A stretch of 64,000 bases of DNA, taken from positions 48,759,288 through 48,823,287 of the forward strand of contig OX104125.1 in NCBI GenBank assembly GCA_944474755.1. Direction: 5' to 3'. The DNA is from Limnoperna fortunei. Taxonomy: Eukaryota > Mollusca > Bivalvia > Mytilida > Modiolidae. The translations under genes were made by a program, and so were the position numbers. Positions 24,839-58,189 of this stretch are shown one piece after another. Position 1 is the stretch's first letter; the number at the start of each line of letters is the position of its first letter. The notes beneath the pieces are model-generated. The model did no database searches. It was not told the DNA's origin and saw only the letters and a program-made list of their open reading frames with translations.

Positions 24839-27425
24839 GTATGAACAAATATCCTAAAGAATGTATGAACAAATATCCTAAAGATCCTCTGGTAAGAGGC
24901 TCATTCTTTAAACTTAACAAGAAATATGAAAAATTAAGGAAAACCAAAAAAAGGGAGTTCAAAGCACAAATAATGCAACGTCTTGAAACAATGAATTCAA
25001 ATAATCCAAAAGAATACTGGAAGCTTGTGAATCATCTTCGAAATAATACAAGGGAAACGCCAGAGAATAATATAGAAGGAAAAGATTGGTTTCAATATTT
25101 TTCCAATTTGGCTAGTGTTAAACCAAACTTTGATACTAAACTTAAAGAGATAGAAGAAAAAATAAAATCTCTTCAAAATAAAGAGATTGTTAATTCACTT
25201 CTTGATAGGAAAATTTCTAACCAAGAAATAGATAAAGCTTTCAAAAAGCTGAAATATGGCAAGAGTACAGGATTAGACAGCATCAGTAATGAAATGCTAA
25301 TAACCTCTAAATCAGTTTTACAGGCATCAATTCTAAAACTCTTTAATGTTGTATTTATGTCAGGTTTATATCCCGATCTTTGGTCTTGTAGTTACATAAG
25401 ACCAATTTTTAAATCAGGAGATAAATTGAAACCAGAAAATTATCGAGGAATTGCCATAAACAACAGCCTAGGTAAACTTTTCAATATAATGCTAAATAAT
25501 AGATTTAATGAATATCTAGAAACAAATAATCTTATTCATGAGACTCAAATTGGCTTTAGTAAAAAGGCAAGCACAGCAGATCATATATTTGTTCTTAAAT
25601 GTATCATAGAAAAATATTTAAAGCTTGGTAATAAGAAACTCTTTACATGCTTTGTAGACTTTTGCAAAGCATTCGATACAGTTATTCATTCAGGGATTTT
25701 TTATAAACTTTTACTGAATAAGATAAATAGCAATTTTTATAATATCATAAAATCTATGTATTCCAAAGATATGCTATGTGTAAAGGTAGGAGATAAAATA
25801 ACAAGATCTTTCTCTTCAAAAATAGGGGTGAAACAAGGTGACGTTCTCAGTCCCAACCTGTTTAAATTTTTTCTCAATGATTTACCTATTGAGTTAGAAA
25901 AAAGACAGACTGTATATTAATAGACAATAAAAAGATTCCCTGTTTGCTATATGCAGATGATTTGGTGCTTTTTTCTGATACAAAAAATGGTCTAAAAAGT
26001 AAATTAGATTTATTGAACGAGTATTGTAGAGAATGGTGCCTAGAAATAAACTTTACTAAATCTAAAGTCATAATATTCAATAATAATGGTAAAGTTTTAA
26101 AAGACAGTTTCCACATTGGAGACAACTCTATTGAATGTATTAAAGAGTATAAATACCTTGGTTTAATAATTGAAAACACAGGAAAATTTAATGAAGCTAA
26201 AAAACAACTTTATCATAAAAGTATGAAGGCATGTTTTAAAATGTATAGTGATTTAAAATCTGCTAGCTCTAATGTTAGACTTTATCTTCATTTATTTGAT
26301 CATTGTATTAAGCCTATTTTGTTGTACGGTTGTGAAAACTGGGGTGTTGTAAATGTAACTGAAAAAAGACAATCTTTATCATTGTATGACATCTTTAAAG
26401 ATTGGGAAGCTGAAAAACTTCATATAAAGTTCTGCAAATATGTTTTAGGAGTTTCAAAACAATGTACAAATATTGGCGTATTAGGTGATTTAGGCAAATA
26501 CCCCTTATATATAGACATTATTAAACATTTTTTCATATATTGGTATAAGCTAGAACATAATCCCAGTGAGTTATTACAATCAGCATATAATGAGTATAAA
26601 AACAACCTAAGTCTGGTAGTATTTGGTACTCCACATTATTATTATATTGTAATAAACTCAACCTAGATTTAAATGTATGTAGAGGAATGAGTAAAGGTAA
26701 ATTTAAATCATCATTAATACAATGTTTGAGGGATAATTTTTTGAATAGTTGGGACAATATAAGAAACAATAATATTAATGATACAGGAAAATTAGATACT
26801 TATTTCAGATTCAAAGAAAAATTTTCCTTTGAAGAATACTTTAATATTAAAAATTTTGATAAAAGAAAAATCATTACTAGATTTAGATTAAGCAATCATA
26901 GATTGCGCATTGAGGTTGGCAGACATGAAAGAAGTCCAAACATTATTTCTGGAAAATTAGAAAAATTAGCAAGAACAGCTAGAATTTGTTTGTATTGTAA
27001 CACAGGAAATATTGAAGACGAAATTCACTTTTTATTAGCATGTCCTTTAAACTCTAGTTTAAGATTTGATTTTTTAAACTTTTTACAAAGTAAATTCCCT
27101 TCATTGATATCCCTTAATAATAATAGCTTGTTCTACTGGTTAATGACAAACGAAAACTATGATTTCAACTGTAAATTAGCAGATTTTTTACAAGTACTAT
27201 ATGATAAAAGAGATAACCATAACAAAATAATGTGCTGTTTTCATACCATTTTTTCTTGTTTTTATTCTTTGTAATGTTTGTAATCAACAATCTAGTGTAA
27301 CAGTTCTGCATTGTAATGTTATGTAATTCAGTGATTGTCATTAATGCTCTGTATAGGGCCCTATGATTGTCATTAATGCTCTGTATAGGGCCCTATTATT
27401 GGAAATAAAGAATTATCTTATCTTA
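24839..27425 (+). mobile_element. 5'-truncated non-LTR retrotransposon (LINE), inserted in another LINE
   Basis: Flanked by a perfect 8-bp duplication TCTGTAAT (24831-24838 and 27426-27433). Removing the insert and one duplication fuses the - strand LINE in frame (NWYNYR then HSKLDGK), which proves the nesting. The insert lacks the endonuclease and begins within the linker before the reverse transcriptase. A 24-bp microduplication lies at the 5' junction (24837-24884). The 3'UTR holds a 30-bp repeat (GATTGTCATTAATGCTCTGT unit) twice, and the tail is ATTATCTTATCTTATC. Confidence 0.9.
24841..27274 (+). pseudogene. LINE ORF2: reverse transcriptase and C-terminal domain
   Basis: Read in three frames joined by two frameshifts (near 25910 and 26620). 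Frame 1 (24841-25920) has KLKYGKSTGLDSISNEML (fingers), CFVDFCKAFDTV (motif A) and GVKQGDVLSPNLFKFFLNDL (motif B). Frame 2 (25944-26666) begins LLYADDLVLFSD, an intact YADD catalytic box, then the thumb with YKYLGLIIENTGKF, FDHCIKPILLYGCENWG and GVLGDLGKYPLYIDI. Frame 3 (26687-27274) holds GKLDTYFRFKEKFSFEEYF and a Cys/His segment CLYCNTGNIEDEIHFLLACP like the CCHC-type motif at LINE C-termini. The organisation fits the Jockey/CR1/L2 assemblage; clade not assigned. No endonuclease, so it is a truncated, dead copy. Confidence 0.85.
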
Positions 27426-31980: not shown

Positions 31981-32157
31981 ATATATTTTCCCGCGTTTCG
32001 TAGTAATAGCGGGAAAATATTGTCTTAAGGTTATGATATGTCATAAGCCAATCAAAGTAGCTACGTATAATCACGTGGTAGAAGCTTATGTAGGTTTTGG
32101 CGGTTTTAAGTTGTTTTCACGGGCTTCATTCTAGCCGTAGACTTCGTTTAGTCAAAA
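31981..32157 (+). repeat. YR element A1 repeat
   Basis: 177 bp, identical to A2 at 35149-35325. Contains the perfect inverted repeat ATATTTTCCCGC...GCGGGAAAATAT near its outer end. It ends exactly before the ATG codon of the first ORF, so it serves as leader and possibly promoter. Confidence 0.9.
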
Positions 32158-32852
32158 TGTCCGAGCCGGCACAAATAACTGCTTTAATAGACCAACGCAT
32201 TTCAGATGCAGTTAATAATATGCAAAACGATATGCTACAACGAATGGACCAGCTCATTACTAATAGTTTTAGTTCTTTTCAAAAAACTATCAATGAGAAT
32301 CAGAGACAGTTATCCGAAACCCAGCTGGCAAAAATAGAGGAAATGAATTCCGATAACTACGTGTTTAAAAGGAAAGGGAACGAAGAGCAGTTCAAAATCA
32401 ACACACAAATCGGCAATAAAATGAAGGAAGCTAAATGTTACTTAAGCGAGGAACCCGACAGGGACAGGCGGGAGTCAACGGTGAAGGCCATGAGAAGCAT
32501 AAGCGAAGGTTTGGATATTCTTAACCATAGGCAAAAACTAGTTAAATTAGCCGATCAATCCGAGAACGGTTGGCGCACAGTGTCCGAGTACGAGACCCAT
32601 AGTCTCGCCGACGATTCAGAGGACGAAAAACGAATCATTCGGGCAAAGAACAAAGCCGCAAGAAAAATGAAGGTCGTTAAAAGAAAATTCACAAGACCAA
32701 CCCCTTACAGCCCTCCTAGAACAGTGACACGTTACAGTCAGCCAATTATCCCTAATATACCTAAAGTTCCAGTTCAACGACCAGGAAAATGTTACGAGTG
32801 CGGGATTATTTTTTTTAAGCTGTTTAAGTCAAGTTATATCAAAGCTTGGTAA
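32157..32852 (+). CDS. YR element gag-like ORF1, truncated at its zinc knuckle
   Basis: 231 codons starting MSEPAQITALIDQRI. I chose this start because the upstream in-frame codons belong to the A repeat, which recurs without an ORF at A2. The N-terminal half is predicted helical (QNDMLQRMDQLITNSFSSFQ), followed by a charged region (SEEPDRDRRES, DDSEDEKR) and a basic Pro-rich stretch. It ends in GKCYECG, the first half of a CCHC zinc knuckle, and then runs into unrelated IIFFKLFKSS and a stop. The knuckle is cut by the deletion that also removed the reverse transcriptase. In complete relatives a gag protein packages the RNA. Confidence 0.7.
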   Translation: MSEPAQITALIDQRISDAVNNMQNDMLQRMDQLITNSFSSFQKTINENQRQLSETQLAKIEEMNSDNYVFKRKGNEEQFKINTQIGNKMKEAKCYLSEEPDRDRRESTVKAMRSISEGLDILNHRQKLVKLADQSENGWRTVSEYETHSLADDSEDEKRIIRAKNKAARKMKVVKRKFTRPTPYSPPRTVTRYSQPIIPNIPKVPVQRPGKCYECGIIFFKLFKSSYIKAW

Positions 32853-32865
32853 AGGGGAGATAAAA

Positions 32866-33906
32866 TTGACAGCAAGATTCTTGGCATCTATTATCGGTCA
32901 AGTTATATCAATGCAAGGGGCGATAGGCCCGGTTGTTAGATTACGTACTAGAGGTATGTACAGTCGCTTATTGACAAGAGCTAGTTGGGACGCTCCCATT
33001 TTGTTAAACAGTGAAGCTGTTGATGAAATCGTTTTCTGGAAGGAAAACGTAGCCAATCTGAATGGCAGAGATCTAAGTATGATCGAGCAATACTCTTGCA
33101 TAGTATATAGCGATGCTTCAGGCATCGGTTATGGTGGTTACGCAGTAGACATTGCTGACACTGAGGTCAGCGGTAACTGGGACGTTACAGAAAGTTTGAA
33201 AAGCTCCACTTGGAGAGAGCTAGAAGCCGTTTTTCGGGTTTTAATTTCATTACTGGATCATTTAAAGGGTCAAACAATTAAATGGTATACTGATAATCAA
33301 AACATAGTACATGTTATCACAAAAGGCAGCAAAAAGAGTGAGTTACAACTAGTCGCAATGAAAATAGCTAATATTTGTCATATCAATCACATATGCTTAC
33401 TGCCTCAATGGGTACCGAGACATAATAACACTATAGCTGACCAACTGAGCAAAAACGTCGATTGCGACGATTGGGAGATTGACAACGACGTTTTTCGTTA
33501 TGTAGATTCAGTCTGGGGTCCACACACGGTAGATCGGTTTGCTTCCGATTTCAATGCAACGTGCGTAGTTTTTAATTCCCGTTATTATTGTAAAGGTACC
33601 AACGGCATAAATGCTTTTGAACAACACTGGGAGTGCGAGAACAATTGGATCGTTCCACCGCCATCCTTGGTGTGCCAATGTATACAAAAATTAAAAACAG
33701 AAAAAGCTTGCGGCACATTAATTGTACCATATTGGAAATCCGCTCCTTTTTGGCCACTTTTACATTGCAGTACTCAGTTTGAATGTTTTGTTCACGATCA
33801 CATTGTTATGTCTTCTCAGATCGTTGTTAAAGGTCGGGGTAGAAACGGTATGTTCGGTAATCCTAATCACAAGTTTAATATGTTACTTTTAAAAATAAGA
33901 TTTTAA
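32866..33906 (+). CDS. YR element RNase H region (RT deleted)
   Basis: An open frame of 346 codons, in fact open from further upstream (LCLSQVISKLGKGEIKL precedes it), so the TTG at 32866 is not a real start. LTARFLASIIGQVISMQGAIGP is the segment that follows the palm in DIRS-like polymerases. RNase H follows: CIVYSDASGIGYGGYAVD (first Asp), STWRELEAVFRVL (Glu), WYTDNQNIVHVI (second Asp) and WVPRHNNTIADQLSK (last acidic position). Downstream GPHTVDRFASDFNATCVVFN and NNWIVPPPSLV match the post-RNase H region, which in DIRS-like elements includes a methyltransferase-like module. Reverse-transcriptase motifs, including the catalytic Asp pair, are absent. Confidence 0.75.
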   Translation: MTARFLASIIGQVISMQGAIGPVVRLRTRGMYSRLLTRASWDAPILLNSEAVDEIVFWKENVANLNGRDLSMIEQYSCIVYSDASGIGYGGYAVDIADTEVSGNWDVTESLKSSTWRELEAVFRVLISLLDHLKGQTIKWYTDNQNIVHVITKGSKKSELQLVAMKIANICHINHICLLPQWVPRHNNTIADQLSKNVDCDDWEIDNDVFRYVDSVWGPHTVDRFASDFNATCVVFNSRYYCKGTNGINAFEQHWECENNWIVPPPSLVCQCIQKLKTEKACGTLIVPYWKSAPFWPLLHCSTQFECFVHDHIVMSSQIVVKGRGRNGMFGNPNHKFNMLLLKIRF

Positions 33907-33924
33907 TTTCGTCCTACTTCTGTT

Positions 33925-34940
33925 GTAACAGGTATAGGCCTCAAGCGTAGCTTAGAGGAACAACTCAACGATGCAGAAATCACGAGCGACAGTCTTACAT
34001 ATCTTGGTGAAAAAATGGAAGTTTATTTATTACAATCCCGTAGCGATAAAACTAATAGTAAATATTTTTATGCATTCAAAAGGTGGGAACAGTTCATTGC
34101 CAAAGAAGGAGGTAAATCCGTACCAGCTTTACCTAACACGTAGCGTTGTACATAACTCATTTGTTAGAAAATGGTTCGTCATATAGTGTCGTACAAACCA
34201 CCGTTTACGGAATCAAATGGGCGCATAGTATTCAAGGATTACAGGACCCTACAGATAACTCTTTTGTTCAAAATTTGTTAGAATCTTCGAAAAGGCAGCC
34301 AGGAAATCCGAAAGTGAAGAAGGATCATATTTCATCGGAAACACTTATAGATTTATGTGCTAAATATAAAGATTGTAACGATTTGGCTATAATAAGAGAT
34401 TTAACGATGATTGTTGTATCTTTTTCAGGTTTTTTACGTTACGATGAGGTCAGCTCAATTCGTTGTAAAGATATTATATTTAAAGATGACCATTTTTGTA
34501 TACATATTCAAAAGAGTAAAACCGATCAGTATAGGTTAGGGAACGAAATTGTTGTATCTAAGGGCTCAACTTTTGCCTGTCCTTATTCTTTATTGAAAAA
34601 ATATATAACTTTGGCCGACGAAGATACCTCTTCACATGATTTTCTTTTTAAGCCAATTTACAGGTCTAAAAAACGGTGTGCACTTATACATAAGAATAGA
34701 CCTCTTAGTTATACTAGGGCTAGAGAATGTATTGTTTCAAGATTAAAAGAAATTCGCCCTGACATGAATATAGGTTTACATTCATTAAGAGCGGGGGGCG
34801 CTACTATAGCCGCTAATTCTGATGTAAACGAACGCTGTTTGAAAAGGCACGGTCGCTGGAAAAGCGATTCAGCAAAAGATGGCTACGTCGCTGACTCTCT
34901 AGAACACAGGTTAGAGGTGACAAAGAAACTTGGTTTATAA
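33925..34940 (+). pseudogene. YR element tyrosine recombinase, one frameshift
   Basis: The N-terminal core-binding part reads SRSDKTNSKYFYAFKRWEQF (33950-34140) and meets a stop at 34141. The rest is in another frame from VALYITHLLENG (34140 on), so one frameshift splits the gene. The catalytic domain (34300-34940) has FSGFLRYDEVSSI (first Arg), a Lys-bearing KSKTDQYRLGNE strand, IGLHSLRAGGATIAAN (His-x-x-Arg) and GRWKSDSAKDGYV (nucleophile Tyr). The R-H-R-Y set is intact. It resembles recombinases of DIRS/PAT/Ngaro elements, which integrate circular cDNA. The 34941-35141 open frame is only the B1 region. Confidence 0.8.
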
Positions 34941-54514: not shown

Positions 54515-54693
54515 CACAGGGGCTTGTAAAAATCGATTTAATTGAGCTTTCGAATGATACTGGGTCGATTTTGTTATAGTGTGTCATTTAGTTATAGTGT
54601 GGGATTTTGTAATAGTGTGGGACACACTATAACAAAATCGACCCAGTATCATTTGAAAGAGCTCAAGTAAATCGATTTTTACAAGCCCCTGTG
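54515..54693. mobile_element. 179-bp palindromic MITE, hAT-like ends
   Basis: Starts CACAGGGGCTTGTAAAAATC and ends with its inverse; the two halves pair over about 68 bp around a centre with repeated GTTATAGTGTGGGA. The 7-bp direct repeat ATCTTAA flanks it (54508-54514, 54694-54700). A half copy lies at 20319. Confidence 0.8.
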
Positions 54694-54977
54694 ATCTTAA
54701 AGTACAGTTGATTCAATCTTGATTTATTTGACTTACTTATATTATATTTCTTAACTAAAATAGACCTAACAGTAATTATAAATAACTGGCACTTGTCGCA
54801 CACAGAATTTACACTACCGCCTGTGGCCTGTTGCCTTATTGGTGTATATACATGTATCCCAGTTGTCATACTGGGTTCCAATTACATAATTCTGCATATG
54901 GACAGGTACCAGTTAAAATCATGAGACTTGGCGAATAGTCTGGGCTCCTGACTAAATATTCTCAATACCGTAAGCGG

Positions 54978-55430
54978 GGTACCACGAATAACAGAAAACA
55001 ACCGAAAACAAGAGGAATAACCGAAAACAATAAAAAAATGACCGAAAAACGCATTAAAATTAATGTGTTTTGTTCAAAACTGTATGTTTAACGTAATAGA
55101 AACGCTATGCAAAAAGTTTTATGCAAAAATATTAATGTATGACAAAGTTATAGCACTTTTTCCTTCATGCCATACAAATACGATAATATACGTTTATTCA
55201 ATATGGCGACTGAATATCACGTGATTCGATCAAAGTACTGCAAATGCTGTAATTAGGCGAGAAATATTGGCTGCATGATAATTATGACTTTAAATTTTAC
55301 ATTATGACTATTGACTTGATTGCAGATATCAGTATTTTCTCTGTACCAATGTAACTTTGGCTTTATGAGAATAAAGATATAAAAATAAAAGAATAAATTA
55401 TGTATCAAACATATATTTTGTTTTATTTTG
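54978..55430 (+). repeat. Left inverted repeat of the SGNH-NADAR cassette
   Basis: Aligns with the reverse complement of 57350-57781 with roughly one difference in eight bases plus a few indels. It contains an AATAAA on the - strand (near 55424) in position to end the SGNH transcript. Confidence 0.8.
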
Positions 55431-55558
55431 TCCATTTACTTTTGTTCCTTAATTAAACATACATGTTAAGGTACATTCATACAACGTATATAAATCAGGA
55501 TGGCATTACAGATGGACAGCATAACAATACATGCATTTTAGAGAAGAAGTGTCATTAT

Positions 55559-56140
55559 TTAAAGTCTGTTCAAATAGTTGACAAACCAACTGAGACCTTT
55601 CCGGATCGCTCGCAACATAGCGATGTAGCCGGCATCACTGAAGTGGACTTTGTTGTCGCCTGCGCATCCGCCGTGGTAAATTTTGACAGGCCTGAAGTAA
55701 CCGACTGCTGGGTGTTGTCTCGAAAGGTCTCTAAATACGTCATTTGCAGCAGCTCTTCTTTCATTGTATTGGTCTTCTGTGCAATGCCTTGGTTTTGATC
55801 GTCTTAGTACAGCCATAAATAGTACTGCTGCCCCACGGGTATGGCATGCAGCAACAAGTTCTTCAACATCTTTTTTAAACTGTTCTTTTCTGAATATTTT
55901 GTCGCTACAGTCGTTGCCTCCGATCTGCATGATGATGATTCTCGGTTTGTAATAGATAAGGAGTCCAGATTCGATGTTATGAGTAAGAGTAGGAACATGT
56001 GCCCCGCTGAACCCATGAAAAAAGACGTTGACTTTGCCCCGACAGTTAGTTGGATCTTCCCATTTGTGTGGTTGTTCTGGATCTTGCAGTAGTTTACGAA
56101 GATGTTCGATGAAGCTGTCACCGAGCACTAAAACGTTCAT
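55559..56140 (-). CDS. SGNH/GDSL-type hydrolase in TIR cassette
   Basis: 193 codons without introns, a usual size for a minimal SGNH esterase. Block I is VLGDSFIEHL with the nucleophile Ser9; a Gly follows in FHGFSGAHV (about 41-49); block III is IGGNDC with Asn76; block V is GDNKVHFSDAGY with His166. The acidic residue usually three positions before that His is Asn here, with Asp162 four before, so the triad is either shifted or reduced to a Ser-His pair. No signal peptide or membrane segment: a cytosolic protein. SGNH domains recur in transposable elements (CR1 ORF1 esterase, extra ORF of some Ngaro elements). Substrate unknown. The start at 56140 is the first ATG and lies about 50 bp from a TATTTATAGC sequence. 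Confidence 0.8.
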   Translation of the reverse strand: MNVLVLGDSFIEHLRKLLQDPEQPHKWEDPTNCRGKVNVFFHGFSGAHVPTLTHNIESGLLIYYKPRIIIMQIGGNDCSDKIFRKEQFKKDVEELVAACHTRGAAVLFMAVLRRSKPRHCTEDQYNERRAAANDVFRDLSRQHPAVGYFRPVKIYHGGCAGDNKVHFSDAGYIAMLRAIRKGLSWFVNYLNRL

Positions 56141-56666
56141 ATTTGTTGATATTCAACGAATGAATGCTCCAATAAATTTCCACTCGCTATAAATATTATT
56201 TCTTCCGCTGTGAACAGTACTCATATCAAAATTGGTAAAAAGCTCTAAAAATTAACAACAATTGACTGTATCATTATTTAAAGATTGATGTTTTAATCTT
56301 CTCTTTATGTACAAGCTGAACACTGTTCATGCAGGATTTGATCATACTTAATTATGTAATTAGAGATTTAATCAAGGTGATTAAAGTGGCGCGTGCCCTT
56401 GGATCATTAATTGAAAAGGTGTGGAAGGTGCGATATCAACGCTTGTCATACCAATTATAATTAATTAAAACGTTTTAATTCCATGCAATAATTAGGTAAT
56501 AATTAATAAAAGAAAACAAGAATGTTGATTAGTTTAACGAGGTTTGATTTAATGAGCATCCTGTGTTCACCTATTTGTATATAAGTAGAGAAATATTAAA
56601 TAAAAGTCTAATAAACACATTAGCTATACCTACAGAATTTTATCACTTCTCAAATACGATACCAAC
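56141..56666. promoter_or_regulatory. Shared divergent promoter region
   Basis: About 525 bp between the two start codons. Toward NADAR, TATATAAG at 56578-56585 is a good TATA box, 82 bp before the ATG. Toward SGNH, a TATTTATAG on the - strand lies near 56190. The middle has an AATTAAT-rich tract. This arrangement allows co-expression, which is inference. Confidence 0.45.
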
Positions 56667-57089
56667 ATGATAACTTACGTACAAGGAGAACACGATGTCC
56701 TTTCTAACTTTTACCCATGCCAGTTAGAATATGAAGGACAAAACTACCACAGCGCAGAACACCTCTACCAGTGTAAAAAGGCAATTCACCATGGATTTTA
56801 TGCGCTAGAACGTCATATTAGGAGAGCCCATAATGCAAAAAGAGCTAAACAGCTTTCCAACAGTATAAGAAGAACATCTAGCCAATGGGACGAGAATAAA
56901 GCCCGTCTTATGTCTGAGATCCTTAAGATTAAATTCCAGCAATGCAAATTATTGCGAGACACTCTAATGCAGACCACTGGATACATCGCCCATGATGTTC
57001 CCGATTTTTTTTGGGGAACCGGAGTACGTGGAAAAGGACAGAATGTGTTTGGACTTTTATTAGCCACCCTTAGACTTTCTGTGTCATAA
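56667..57089 (+). CDS. NADAR-domain protein in TIR cassette
   Basis: 140 codons, the full length of a stand-alone NADAR domain (YbiA/COG3236 type). Landmarks in order: LSNFYPC (13-18), YHSAEHLYQCKKA (27-39), the helix with AKRAKQL, the W74-D-x-x-K motif QWDENKARLM, MSEILKIKFQQ, and FFWGTGVRGKGQNVFGLLLA (114-133). All the conserved acidic, Trp and Gly-Asn positions I know for the family are present. NADAR proteins act on N-glycosidic bonds of ribosyl compounds, including riboflavin intermediates and, in some members, ADP-ribose on guanine in nucleic acid. No intron, signal peptide or frameshift. It faces away from the SGNH gene. AATAAA signals follow at 57160 and in the right inverted repeat. 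Confidence 0.88.
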   Translation: MITYVQGEHDVLSNFYPCQLEYEGQNYHSAEHLYQCKKAIHHGFYALERHIRRAHNAKRAKQLSNSIRRTSSQWDENKARLMSEILKIKFQQCKLLRDTLMQTTGYIAHDVPDFFWGTGVRGKGQNVFGLLLATLRLSVS

Positions 57090-57111
57090 TTTGTTACAAT
57101 ACATTTTTACA

Positions 57112-57136
57112 ATAGACAATAGACAATAGACAATAT
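57112..57136. repeat. Short AATAGAC tandem repeat
   Basis: Three to four 7-bp units (ACAATAG) just after the NADAR stop codon, likely in its 3'UTR. Confidence 0.7.
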
Positions 57137-57349
57137 TTATTTGCGCAAACACATTTACAATAAATGGTTAAGGCATGAAACAAGACTGTCACTTTTACAA
57201 TAAACATATAGTTATATATACAAGTTATAATCCATACATCGCAATGTAATGTTGTAACTACTAGTATTCTATAAATAAAATTATATACTGCTTTGATTTT
57301 TTATTATTTGTTCTACTCGAATATGGTAATCAAGTTTTCTTGTGCAAAC

Positions 57350-57781
57350 AAAATGAGCACAAAATAAAACACAATATATGCATGATACATAATTTGTTTT
57401 ATTCTTTTATTATTATGTCGTTATTCTCACCAAGCCAAAGGTACATTCGTACAGAGAACATAATTATCAATTATCACCATGCGGCCTAATCATAAAGTGG
57501 ATCACAGCATTTCCAGTACTTTGATCGAATCACGTGATATTCAGTCGCCATATTGATTATATGTATATATTATCGGACATTGTATGGCATACAGAAAAAC
57601 TGATATAATTTTGTCATACATTAATATTTTTTCATAAAACTTTTTGAATAGCGTCTCTATTACGTTAAACATACAGTTTTGAACAAAAAACATTAACTTT
57701 AATGCGTTTTTCGGTCATTTTTTTATTGTTTTCGGTTATTCCTCTTGTTTTCGGTTGTTTTCTGTTATTCGAGCTACCGCA
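57350..57781 (-). repeat. Right inverted repeat of the SGNH-NADAR cassette
   Basis: Inverse of the left arm. It begins with AAAATAAAACACAATATATG, supplying a + strand AATAAA for the NADAR transcript, and ends CTGTTATTCGAGCTACCGCA. - strand open frames here (57665-58072) are chance. Confidence 0.8.
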
Positions 57782-58009
57782 GTAAGCGGACTTCCGGTTC
57801 GAATATACAAATATGGCCGTACAAATATTATATTTGAAAGTGAAGCTTGCGTAAATGAAAAATATTGCACCAGGGGACCAGGTAAACTTGGCGAAAAGCA
57901 GACGAAGTGATTTTGACCAAGTGAAATGAAAAACGTGAGTAGATTTTTTATCAATATTTGTGTTATTTTCCCATATTCTCGTTATTTGACAGGATTCTTT
58001 TGTAGGAAT

Positions 58010-58189
58010 ACAAGTCAAATCGCCCCCGTCAAAAACGCCCACCCCCCCCCCTTTTTGCAAAAACGCCCACAATGTAAAATCGCCCCTTGTTAAAACGCTC
58101 CCACCTTTTACAAAATCGCCCCACTTAGCAAAATCACCCCATCAAAAACGCCCCCACATTGAGCAAAATCGCCCCATTTACAAAAATCG
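58010..58189. repeat. Degenerate AAAATCGCCCC minisatellite
   Basis: About ten imperfect 12- to 20-bp units of the form CAAAATCGCCCC or AAAAACGCCCCC, with a 12-C run. It directly abuts the MITE at 58190. Confidence 0.75.

Follow-up and report, generated by a model that had tools for sequence, protein, structure and literature searches.

SGNH hydrolase and NADAR as probable accessory genes of a Rehavkus-like Mutator transposon in Limnoperna fortunei

In the 64,000-nucleotide stretch of Limnoperna fortunei DNA analysed here (the window), an SGNH hydrolase gene and a NADAR gene lie as two divergent, intronless open frames between inverted arms. The question raised by this locus is what kind of element carries such a pair, and whether the two genes serve the element or are accidental cargo. 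With a probability of about 0.65, we read it as a Mutator (MULE) transposon of Rehavkus-like type, present here as a non-autonomous copy, in which SGNH and NADAR would be accessory genes of the lineage with a role in countering ADP-ribosylation. The features of the locus are as follows.

54968..54976, no strand: left target-site duplication CCGTAAGCG, matching the right copy at 8 of 9 positions
54977..55431, no strand: left terminal inverted repeat (TIR), tip GGGTACCACGAATAACAG (arm alignment, genome tip counts, boundary rule)
55422..55427, minus strand: AATAAA downstream of the SGNH gene, within the arm (signal scan)
55559..56140, minus strand: SGNH (GDSL-like) hydrolase gene, 193 aa, with a private D-to-N change in DxxH (frame, Pfam, copy comparison)
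56141..56666, no strand: 526-bp divergent intergenic region, a putative bidirectional promoter (position between the two frames)
56667..57089, plus strand: NADAR gene, 140 aa (open frame, Pfam, NCBIfam, structure-database matches)
57159..57164, plus strand: first AATAAA downstream of the NADAR gene (signal scan)
57359..57779, no strand: right terminal inverted repeat, tip (minus strand) CGGTAGCTCGAATAACAG (arm alignment, genome tip counts, boundary rule)
57780..57788, no strand: right target-site duplication CAGTAAGCG (boundary rule from anchored copies)

A boundary rule read from 21 anchored copies places the TIR-bounded insertion at 54977-57779. Its arms, 54978-55431 against 57359-57778, align in gapless pieces of 185 nt (95%), 68 nt (93%), 70 nt (86%) and 55 nt (84%). 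The inverted repeats of about 450 bp in the original prediction are therefore right in length (about 420-455 bp), but near-identical only over the outer 185 bp. The direct repeat of 8 bp proposed for the edges is present on both sides as the octamer GTAAGCGG (54970-54977 and 57782-57789), unequally spaced from the two tips, but its size is corrected by the family rule to a 9-bp duplication, CCGTAAGCG and CAGTAAGCG, with 8 of 9 positions matching. Among the 21 anchored copies (8 more A-type loci, not anchored, were left out) this duplication is perfect in 13, matches at 8 of 9 positions in five, the window copy included, and is lower in three; none of 420 mismatched left/right pairs reaches 8 matches. 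Since 18 of the 21 copies reach 8 or 9 matches in the 9-bp frame, classes that duplicate 8 bp (hAT or P, for example) were rejected. MULEs are marked by target-site duplications of 8-11 bp, typically 9 bp, by TIRs that are often long, and by a MULE-type DDE transposase (PF10551). The family of the window element has all three, the transposase being found in a relative with the same ends, L035, and not in the window copy, where tblastn with the L044 transposase protein gave no match at E 1e-3.

L035 has the tips of the window element and a perfect duplication, CTTTTCGGG, and it is the transposase-encoding relative that the original prediction had called for, although its frames are broken. It contains a PHD-like exon (19.3 bits, under the cut-off of 24) and a MULE domain whose 27.6 bits equal the cut-off, followed by an 85-bp minisatellite, and it lacks both SGNH and NADAR. 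A second copy of the PHD-like exon, with short transposase pieces, occurs in L037; the remaining examined loci, family B included, gave no PHD match. L034 (7.2 kb) and L037 share the same tips but were rejected, as neither holds an intact transposase frame. Minisatellite units of 84-85 bp follow the transposase in L035, L038 and L039, and inspection of the letters by eye found none in the window copy. The likeness to Rehavkus is one of features: 9-bp duplications, long TIRs, a MULE-type transposase and a minisatellite before the 3' TIR recur here, and the PHD-like exon may correspond to the PHD finger that Rehavkus has with its transposase, whereas the passages on Rehavkus in PMC6446971 limit it to arthropods and annelids, describe a single ORF and note no NADAR, SGNH or OTU.

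The element is clearly repeated in the genome. A 33-mer of the TIR, with up to 3 mismatches, has 197 sites (104 + 93) against 0 + 0 for the control, and SGNH-A lies within 3 kb of 27 of 45 NADAR-A loci compared. Many copies share the arms, the target duplications and both genes, which bears out the predicted mobile two-gene module; arms confined to this locus, or single-copy host genes without arms, are ruled out by these multiple armed copies. Among 29 listed tip pairs, 15 hold neither gene and none holds both genes together with a transposase, and L029, L030 and L037 show perfect duplications without SGNH and NADAR genes. The tip pairs taken together indicate that an element does not require the genes in cis. 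We suggest that the SGNH/NADAR element is moved in trans by a transposase of the L035 type acting on the shared ends.

Many examined copies are decaying. The comparison among copies that had been proposed gave purifying selection on both genes, with pN/pS below 0.5 (0.43, 0.25-0.77, and 0.48, 0.31-0.81) and bootstrap intervals that exclude 1; the off-frame controls gave 0.99 and 1.42, and 0.77 and 0.96. The window SGNH matches PF13472 (E 8.5e-15) and has the blocks GDS, G, GGND and H, but the Asp of DxxH, which all 13 of the other readable copies keep, is Asn here, so that of two genes described as complete, intronless, facing apart and intact, only the last word needs limiting. Poly(A) signals had been placed inside the repeats, which is true of SGNH (55422 and 55193, minus strand, both within the arm), but NADAR is first followed by three signals (57159, 57199 and 57274) that stop short of the arm, and a further one (57363) sits at the arm's inner edge. 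Searches of public proteins with the two window proteins found 9 and 2 relatives, none of them named, and PHROGs matched one unnamed family.

The window NADAR matches PF08719 (E 3.1e-22, 80 bits, cut-off 35.1) and the structures 2b3w and 8bau. When the key residues of characterised NADARs are taken from the relevant part of PMC11543638, E31, K38, D113 and W116 are invariant across 12 aligned sequences, E31 and K38 standing for the catalytic Glu/Lys pair. The position of the catalytic Glu125 of the Phytophthora NADAR is A, N, K, C or I in all 12 by profile alignment (another alignment puts D110 there), and the following residue, H109, is again invariant in 12 of 12. Judged from these alignments, this clade appears to have other residues in place of the Glu/Asp that is catalytic on the last strand of characterised NADARs. 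The element's NADAR shares the PF08719 family and the four kept residues with YbiA and the DarT1-associated NADARs, but differs from them at the last-strand Glu/Asp, where it appears to have a replacement next to the invariant H109.

NADAR also accompanies MULE transposases outside the window's family. In a second family (B), whose transposase is 48-72% identical by piece to that of the first, NADAR is divergent from an OTU-MULE transposase: L038 and L039 show a TIR, NADAR (minus) and transposase (plus), and L044 has OTU and MULE in a single 847-aa frame. The MULE domain scores 29.2 bits in L044, 27.5 in L038, just below the cut-off of 27.6, and 27.9 in L041 of a distant third family (C). A listed transposase lies within 7 kb of 3 of the 7 full-length B-type NADAR loci, two of the three resembling one duplicated segment, and the B-type deletion copies L033 and L042 lack a TIR at the far end. 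OTU and MULE transposase are likewise joined in the cnidarian MuDR-6_HM, for which the entry in PMC6446971 lists no NADAR or SGNH. In family C the transposase lies within 4 kb of 7 of 9 NADAR loci, and in L045 an open frame runs from NADAR into the transposase. SGNH-type matches lie in the transposase frame at three loci, as judged from coordinates and frame length. The SGNH of the family C relative P0012 shows no detectable pairwise similarity to that of the window, and a shared origin of A-type and C-type SGNH is unsupported by pairwise comparison.

These joined frames bear on an explanation that we consider unlikely, in which NADAR, and perhaps SGNH, would work within the transposition reaction and not in counter-defence, binding DNA or processing ends as a component of the transpososome, for instance. 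The NADAR-transposase frame of family C and the three SGNH-type matches are what such a role would lead one to expect, but NADAR is a separate gene in families A and B, copies free of both genes (L029, L030, L037) carry perfect duplications, and at the one locus of the three that was read, on C13, SGNH is frame-shifted with an in-frame part of only 17.5 bits against a cut-off of 32.9.

Pack-MULEs and accessory-gene MULEs, like the window element, carry genes other than the transposase; KI-MULE carries a Ulp1 protease and VANDAL an anti-silencing factor. Pack-MULE cargo usually consists of host gene fragments, whereas the window genes are complete frames of families that recur in other elements. 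It is improbable, in our view, that a MULE once took two neighbouring host genes that have since hitchhiked with no function for the element. Gene capture by MULEs is described in part of PMC6446971, the transposase-bearing L035 lacks both genes, and host-like NADAR arrays exist on C13 and C1, but their matches are split into exon-like pieces. The NADARs of families A, B and C share 40-55% identity over 134-136 residues, while one host exon piece shares 26-45% with them over 21-127 residues (32% over 44 with the window's) and a second hardly matches them. Descent of NADAR from these arrays was provisionally rejected on this greater pairwise distance of the two exon pieces. The pN/pS values and the fact that families B and C again pair NADAR with a MULE transposase also speak against passive capture, and because of these two results we regard the divergent SGNH and NADAR as probable accessory genes of the lineage, not accidental cargo. 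That the element instead spreads a metabolic NADAR/SGNH of benefit to the host, akin to the riboflavin-intermediate N-glycosidase (TIGR02464, 84.4 against a cut-off of 73.7), is very improbable given the decaying copies, the apparently replaced catalytic Glu and the host-like arrays already present.

What the accessory genes would do is the weakest step of our reading. NADAR may strip ribose or ADP-ribose adducts placed by the host on element DNA, RNA or transposase, SGNH may take off an acyl or acetyl group in the same conflict, and family members would profit from both enzymes in trans. This counter-ADP-ribosylation role, like the editing of host nucleotides that the original prediction offered beside it, is made more likely by the repeated pairing of NADAR with MULE transposase. 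It is made less likely by the apparent replacement of the last-strand Glu/Asp, and the private Asn in the DxxH motif of the window SGNH adds to the caution. A bolder version, possible but doubtful, is that in a lineage of animal MULEs NADAR, often together with SGNH, has become integral to the transposition system, in the extreme fused to the transposase, and serves to clear ADP-ribose from the transposase or from the DNA of the element.

A cut-and-paste DNA transposon has no RNA intermediate. NADAR in retrotransposons is already published: the account in PMC12477816 covers an Ectocarpus Gypsy and an oyster Tx1 LINE, both retrotransposons unlike the DNA transposon described here, and proposes RNA-intermediate processing. 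The literature that we searched held no NADAR in any DNA transposon. SGNH likewise occurs in mobile elements of other classes, such as LINEs, bdelloid LTR elements and the texim-bearing Helitrons of fish, for which the relevant parts of PMC3905857, PMC4021074 and PMC5408684 note no NADAR partner. The role of NADAR in animals is called unclear in a passage of PMC11125620, and its domain is reported from viruses in part of PMC9503650. Our findings add cut-and-paste elements to the retroelements and viruses that carry the domain. A NADAR that DNA transposons keep by purifying selection, and that in one family shares an open frame with the transposase, offers a concrete test system for animal NADAR. 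It also points to ADP-ribosylation as a possible means of acting against mobile DNA in these animals. If the bolder version above is true, this would be the first known DNA transposon to fight an ADP-ribosylation-based host defence, a counterpart to the retrotransposons and viruses that took up NADAR separately.

We consider it nearly certain that the window element is a non-autonomous MULE copy. The inverted-arm insertion with two divergent open genes described in the original prediction is present as a 2.8-kb element in the window (C15:48759288-48823287 of a 1.335-Gb genome), with the following features:

54977-57779: the element, with a gene in each direction between its terminal inverted repeats (TIRs)
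left gene, minus strand: SGNH hydrolase (Pfam GDSL/SGNH hydrolase, 56.1 bits, cut-off 32.9)
right gene, plus strand: NADAR (Pfam, 80 bits, cut-off 35.1)
54515-54693, about 280 bp beyond the left end: near-perfect MITE-like fold-back, arms of 34 nt (97%) and 39 nt (97%)
58038-58188, right beside the right end: AAAATCGCCCC-type repeat, three times at a spacing of 53-54 bp
24841-27274 and 32157-34940: long frames resembling, by eye, a LINE reverse transcriptase and a tyrosine-recombinase retroelement

The window NADAR also exceeds the NCBIfam cut-off for riboflavin-intermediate N-glycosidase and matches YbiA (2b3w) and 8bau.

The window arm has at least 51 matching stretches in the genome, with the best 40 of 537 candidates scored. 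A degenerate 33-base pattern of the outermost TIR sequence, the tip, with up to three mismatches allowed, finds 104 forward and 93 reverse sites, whereas its reversed control finds 0 and 0. Among the first 100 sites listed there are 29 inward-facing pairs less than 12 kb apart and one neighbour pair otherwise oriented. Both ends could be anchored in 21 of 29 fetched loci of the window element's own family (family A), the window copy among them. A 9-bp target-site duplication is perfect in 13 of the 21, matches at 8 of 9 positions in five, including the window copy, and was not found in three (L014, L019 and L027), while none of 420 mismatched left-right flank pairs used as a control reaches 8 matches. 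The proposal that this is a mobile element is borne out by many copies with the same tips and by duplications matching at 8 or 9 positions in 18 of 21. One tip has G and the other C as the base adjoining GGTA, and in some copies the two tips have exchanged sides relative to both genes, which suggests inversion inside the element between its long arms. Three elements with family A tips and perfect 9-bp duplications (L029, L030 and L037) are without NADAR and SGNH; the arms within each of L029 and L030 are 98% alike, so that their movement looks recent. Internal repeats of about 85 bp are visible by eye in L029.

A relative with a transposase, which the original prediction proposed to look for at full length, exists in L035 (C2:86489202-86494194), which has both family A tips, a perfect duplication and a MULE transposase domain scoring exactly at the cut-off (27.6 bits), although its frames are broken. 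It also has a PHD-like exon in broken frame (19.3 bits, below the cut-off of 24); NADAR and SGNH are both absent from it. A second tip pair, C6:57503192-57505203, encloses transposase matches at 75-87% identity. An 84-85-bp minisatellite follows the transposase in L035 and in two loci of a second family, L038 and L039. Rehavkus elements, in the available part of their description, have 9-bp duplications, long TIRs, a PHD finger and a minisatellite (PMC6446971), and by that description the elements here are alike in the duplication, the long TIRs, the PHD-like exon and the minisatellite.

The two genes frequently occur together. We counted at least 45 NADAR loci (at least about 75% identity) and at least 48 SGNH loci, with second fragments per locus, distant families and a 78% SGNH fragment at C5:13749133 set aside; among the matches listed, the partner gene lies less than 3 kb away at 27 of 45 and 27 of 48, respectively. 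Among the same matches, the 29 tip pairs enclose both genes in 9 cases, NADAR only in 3, SGNH only in 2 and neither in 15. Of 23 fetched loci, 18, not counting the window, have NADAR aligned over at least 60% of its length and 14 have SGNH aligned to that extent, after removal of shorter matches (one NADAR locus, seven SGNH loci) and second pieces. The NADAR coding frame is free of stops and indels in five copies (L009, L012, L020, L024 and L025) and carries only multiple-of-three deletions in four more (L011, L023, L026 and L028), and SGNH has a start codon and neither stop nor indel in 7 of 14; both frames are open in L009, L024 and the window copy. The pN/pS ratio is 0.43 for NADAR (bootstrap 0.25-0.77; 19 rows) and 0.48 for SGNH (0.31-0.81; 15 rows), from alignments that took in copies with indels and skipped gapped codons, against 0.99 and 1.42 (NADAR) and 0.77 and 0.96 (SGNH) off frame in the same alignments. 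The 'intact' NADAR subset, which contains L019 with its 37-base insertion, gives 0.38. These ratios support purifying selection on both genes, as support rather than proof, since they come from counting sequence pairs without a tree.

With the residues named in the available part of PMC11543638 as reference, E31, K38, D113 and W116 are invariant in all 12 aligned NADARs, an alignment without P0009, a relative with a fragmentary match. The last-strand Glu position holds A, N, K, C or I in the 12, followed by an invariant H109; this mapping comes from a profile alignment, and a single-sequence alignment instead sets D110 against that Glu, at a position where members of the clade have D, N, I or T. 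A Glu is inserted near this position in the NADAR of L041, a member of a distant third family. In the SGNH DxxH motif, Asn replaces Asp in the window copy, while all 13 other readable copies have Asp; the window SGNH may thus be impaired despite its open frame.

NADAR also accompanies transposases outside family A. In family B the NADAR is 52-55% identical to that of the window and has seven full-length loci, one with a stop. L038 and L039 are laid out as a TIR with tip CGGTACATCGAAAGTG, then NADAR (-), then MULE transposase (+). The MULE domain of L038 scores 27.5 bits, just below the cut-off of 27.6; the transposase of L039, a locus whose right arm is partly covered by the fetched stretch, consists of two pieces without a Pfam match, yet these are 98-100% identical to L044. 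At positions 1160-3700 of L044, a locus on C5, a frame that stays open for at least 847 aa combines OTU protease (25.8 bits, cut-off 23.3) and MULE (29.2, cut-off 27.6) domains; the NADAR of L040 lies 2.6 kb away in divergent orientation, and four transposase pieces of L035 match the L044 protein at 48, 61-66, 63 and 70-72% identity. Among the matches listed, a transposase lies less than 7 kb from 3 of the 7 full-length NADARs, two of the three resembling copies of one duplicated segment; L039 was scored as a miss, since what remains of it does not include the part used as query, and three partial loci were not counted because they had been chosen for a nearby transposase match. The NADAR is a single open frame in L038, L039 and L040, and in pieces as if intron-split in L042, L033 and L043; in L033 and L042 the second of these pieces borders directly on an SGNH. 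By eye, a NADAR exon adjoins an SGNH about 35-53% identical to that of the window at no fewer than 24 other loci, many with stops or frame breaks.

In family C, whose transposase is about 25% identical to that of family B, a C transposase lies less than 4 kb from the NADAR at 7 of 9 loci, with none near the ninth, C7:18043950, among the matches listed; with 23 transposase loci of 123 matches, the chance expectation is 0.001 against 7 of 8 loci entered. In L041 (C5:21531504) the MULE transposase (27.9 bits, cut-off 27.6) is downstream of NADAR and separated from it by a frame break, and in the C8 copy L045 the frame (801 bases read) stays open across NADAR and a Ser-rich linker and on into the transposase. 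In a named relative, the predicted Mytilus californianus protein P0012 (LOC127738033), GDSL (33.3 bits against a cut-off of 32.9) occurs together with a stretch rich in Ser, Thr and Pro and the opening part of a NADAR (25.8, below the cut-off of 35.1); its SGNH has no detectable pairwise similarity to that of the window. Searching the genome with P0012 places an SGNH-type match and C transposase in one open frame at C13, C15 and C9, as judged by coordinates and frame length; as read at C13 alone, SGNH is in frame for its C-terminal half only, with a weak 17.5 bits against 32.9.

Between families A, B and C, NADAR identity is 40-55% over 134-136 residues. Host-like exon-split NADAR arrays occur on C13 (24.86-25.26 Mb) and on C1 (95.40-95.59 Mb); one exon piece from each was compared, and the C13 piece is 26-45% identical to transposon-type NADARs over stretches of 21-127 residues, the C1 piece hardly matching them at all. 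The available parts of earlier reports place NADAR in Ectocarpus Gypsy elements and Pacific oyster Tx1 LINEs (PMC12477816), and SGNH hydrolases in Helitrons, LTR elements and LINEs (PMC4021074, PMC5408684, PMC3905857). In the text of two MULE surveys (PMC6446971 and PMC13359780) NADAR and SGNH are mentioned 0 times, and among the literature matches listed, mostly titles and abstract beginnings, we found no NADAR in a DNA transposon, a limited negative. Our results make it likely that this MULE lineage has long retained NADAR as an accessory. More tentatively, a role against host ADP-ribosylation is a reasonable hypothesis.
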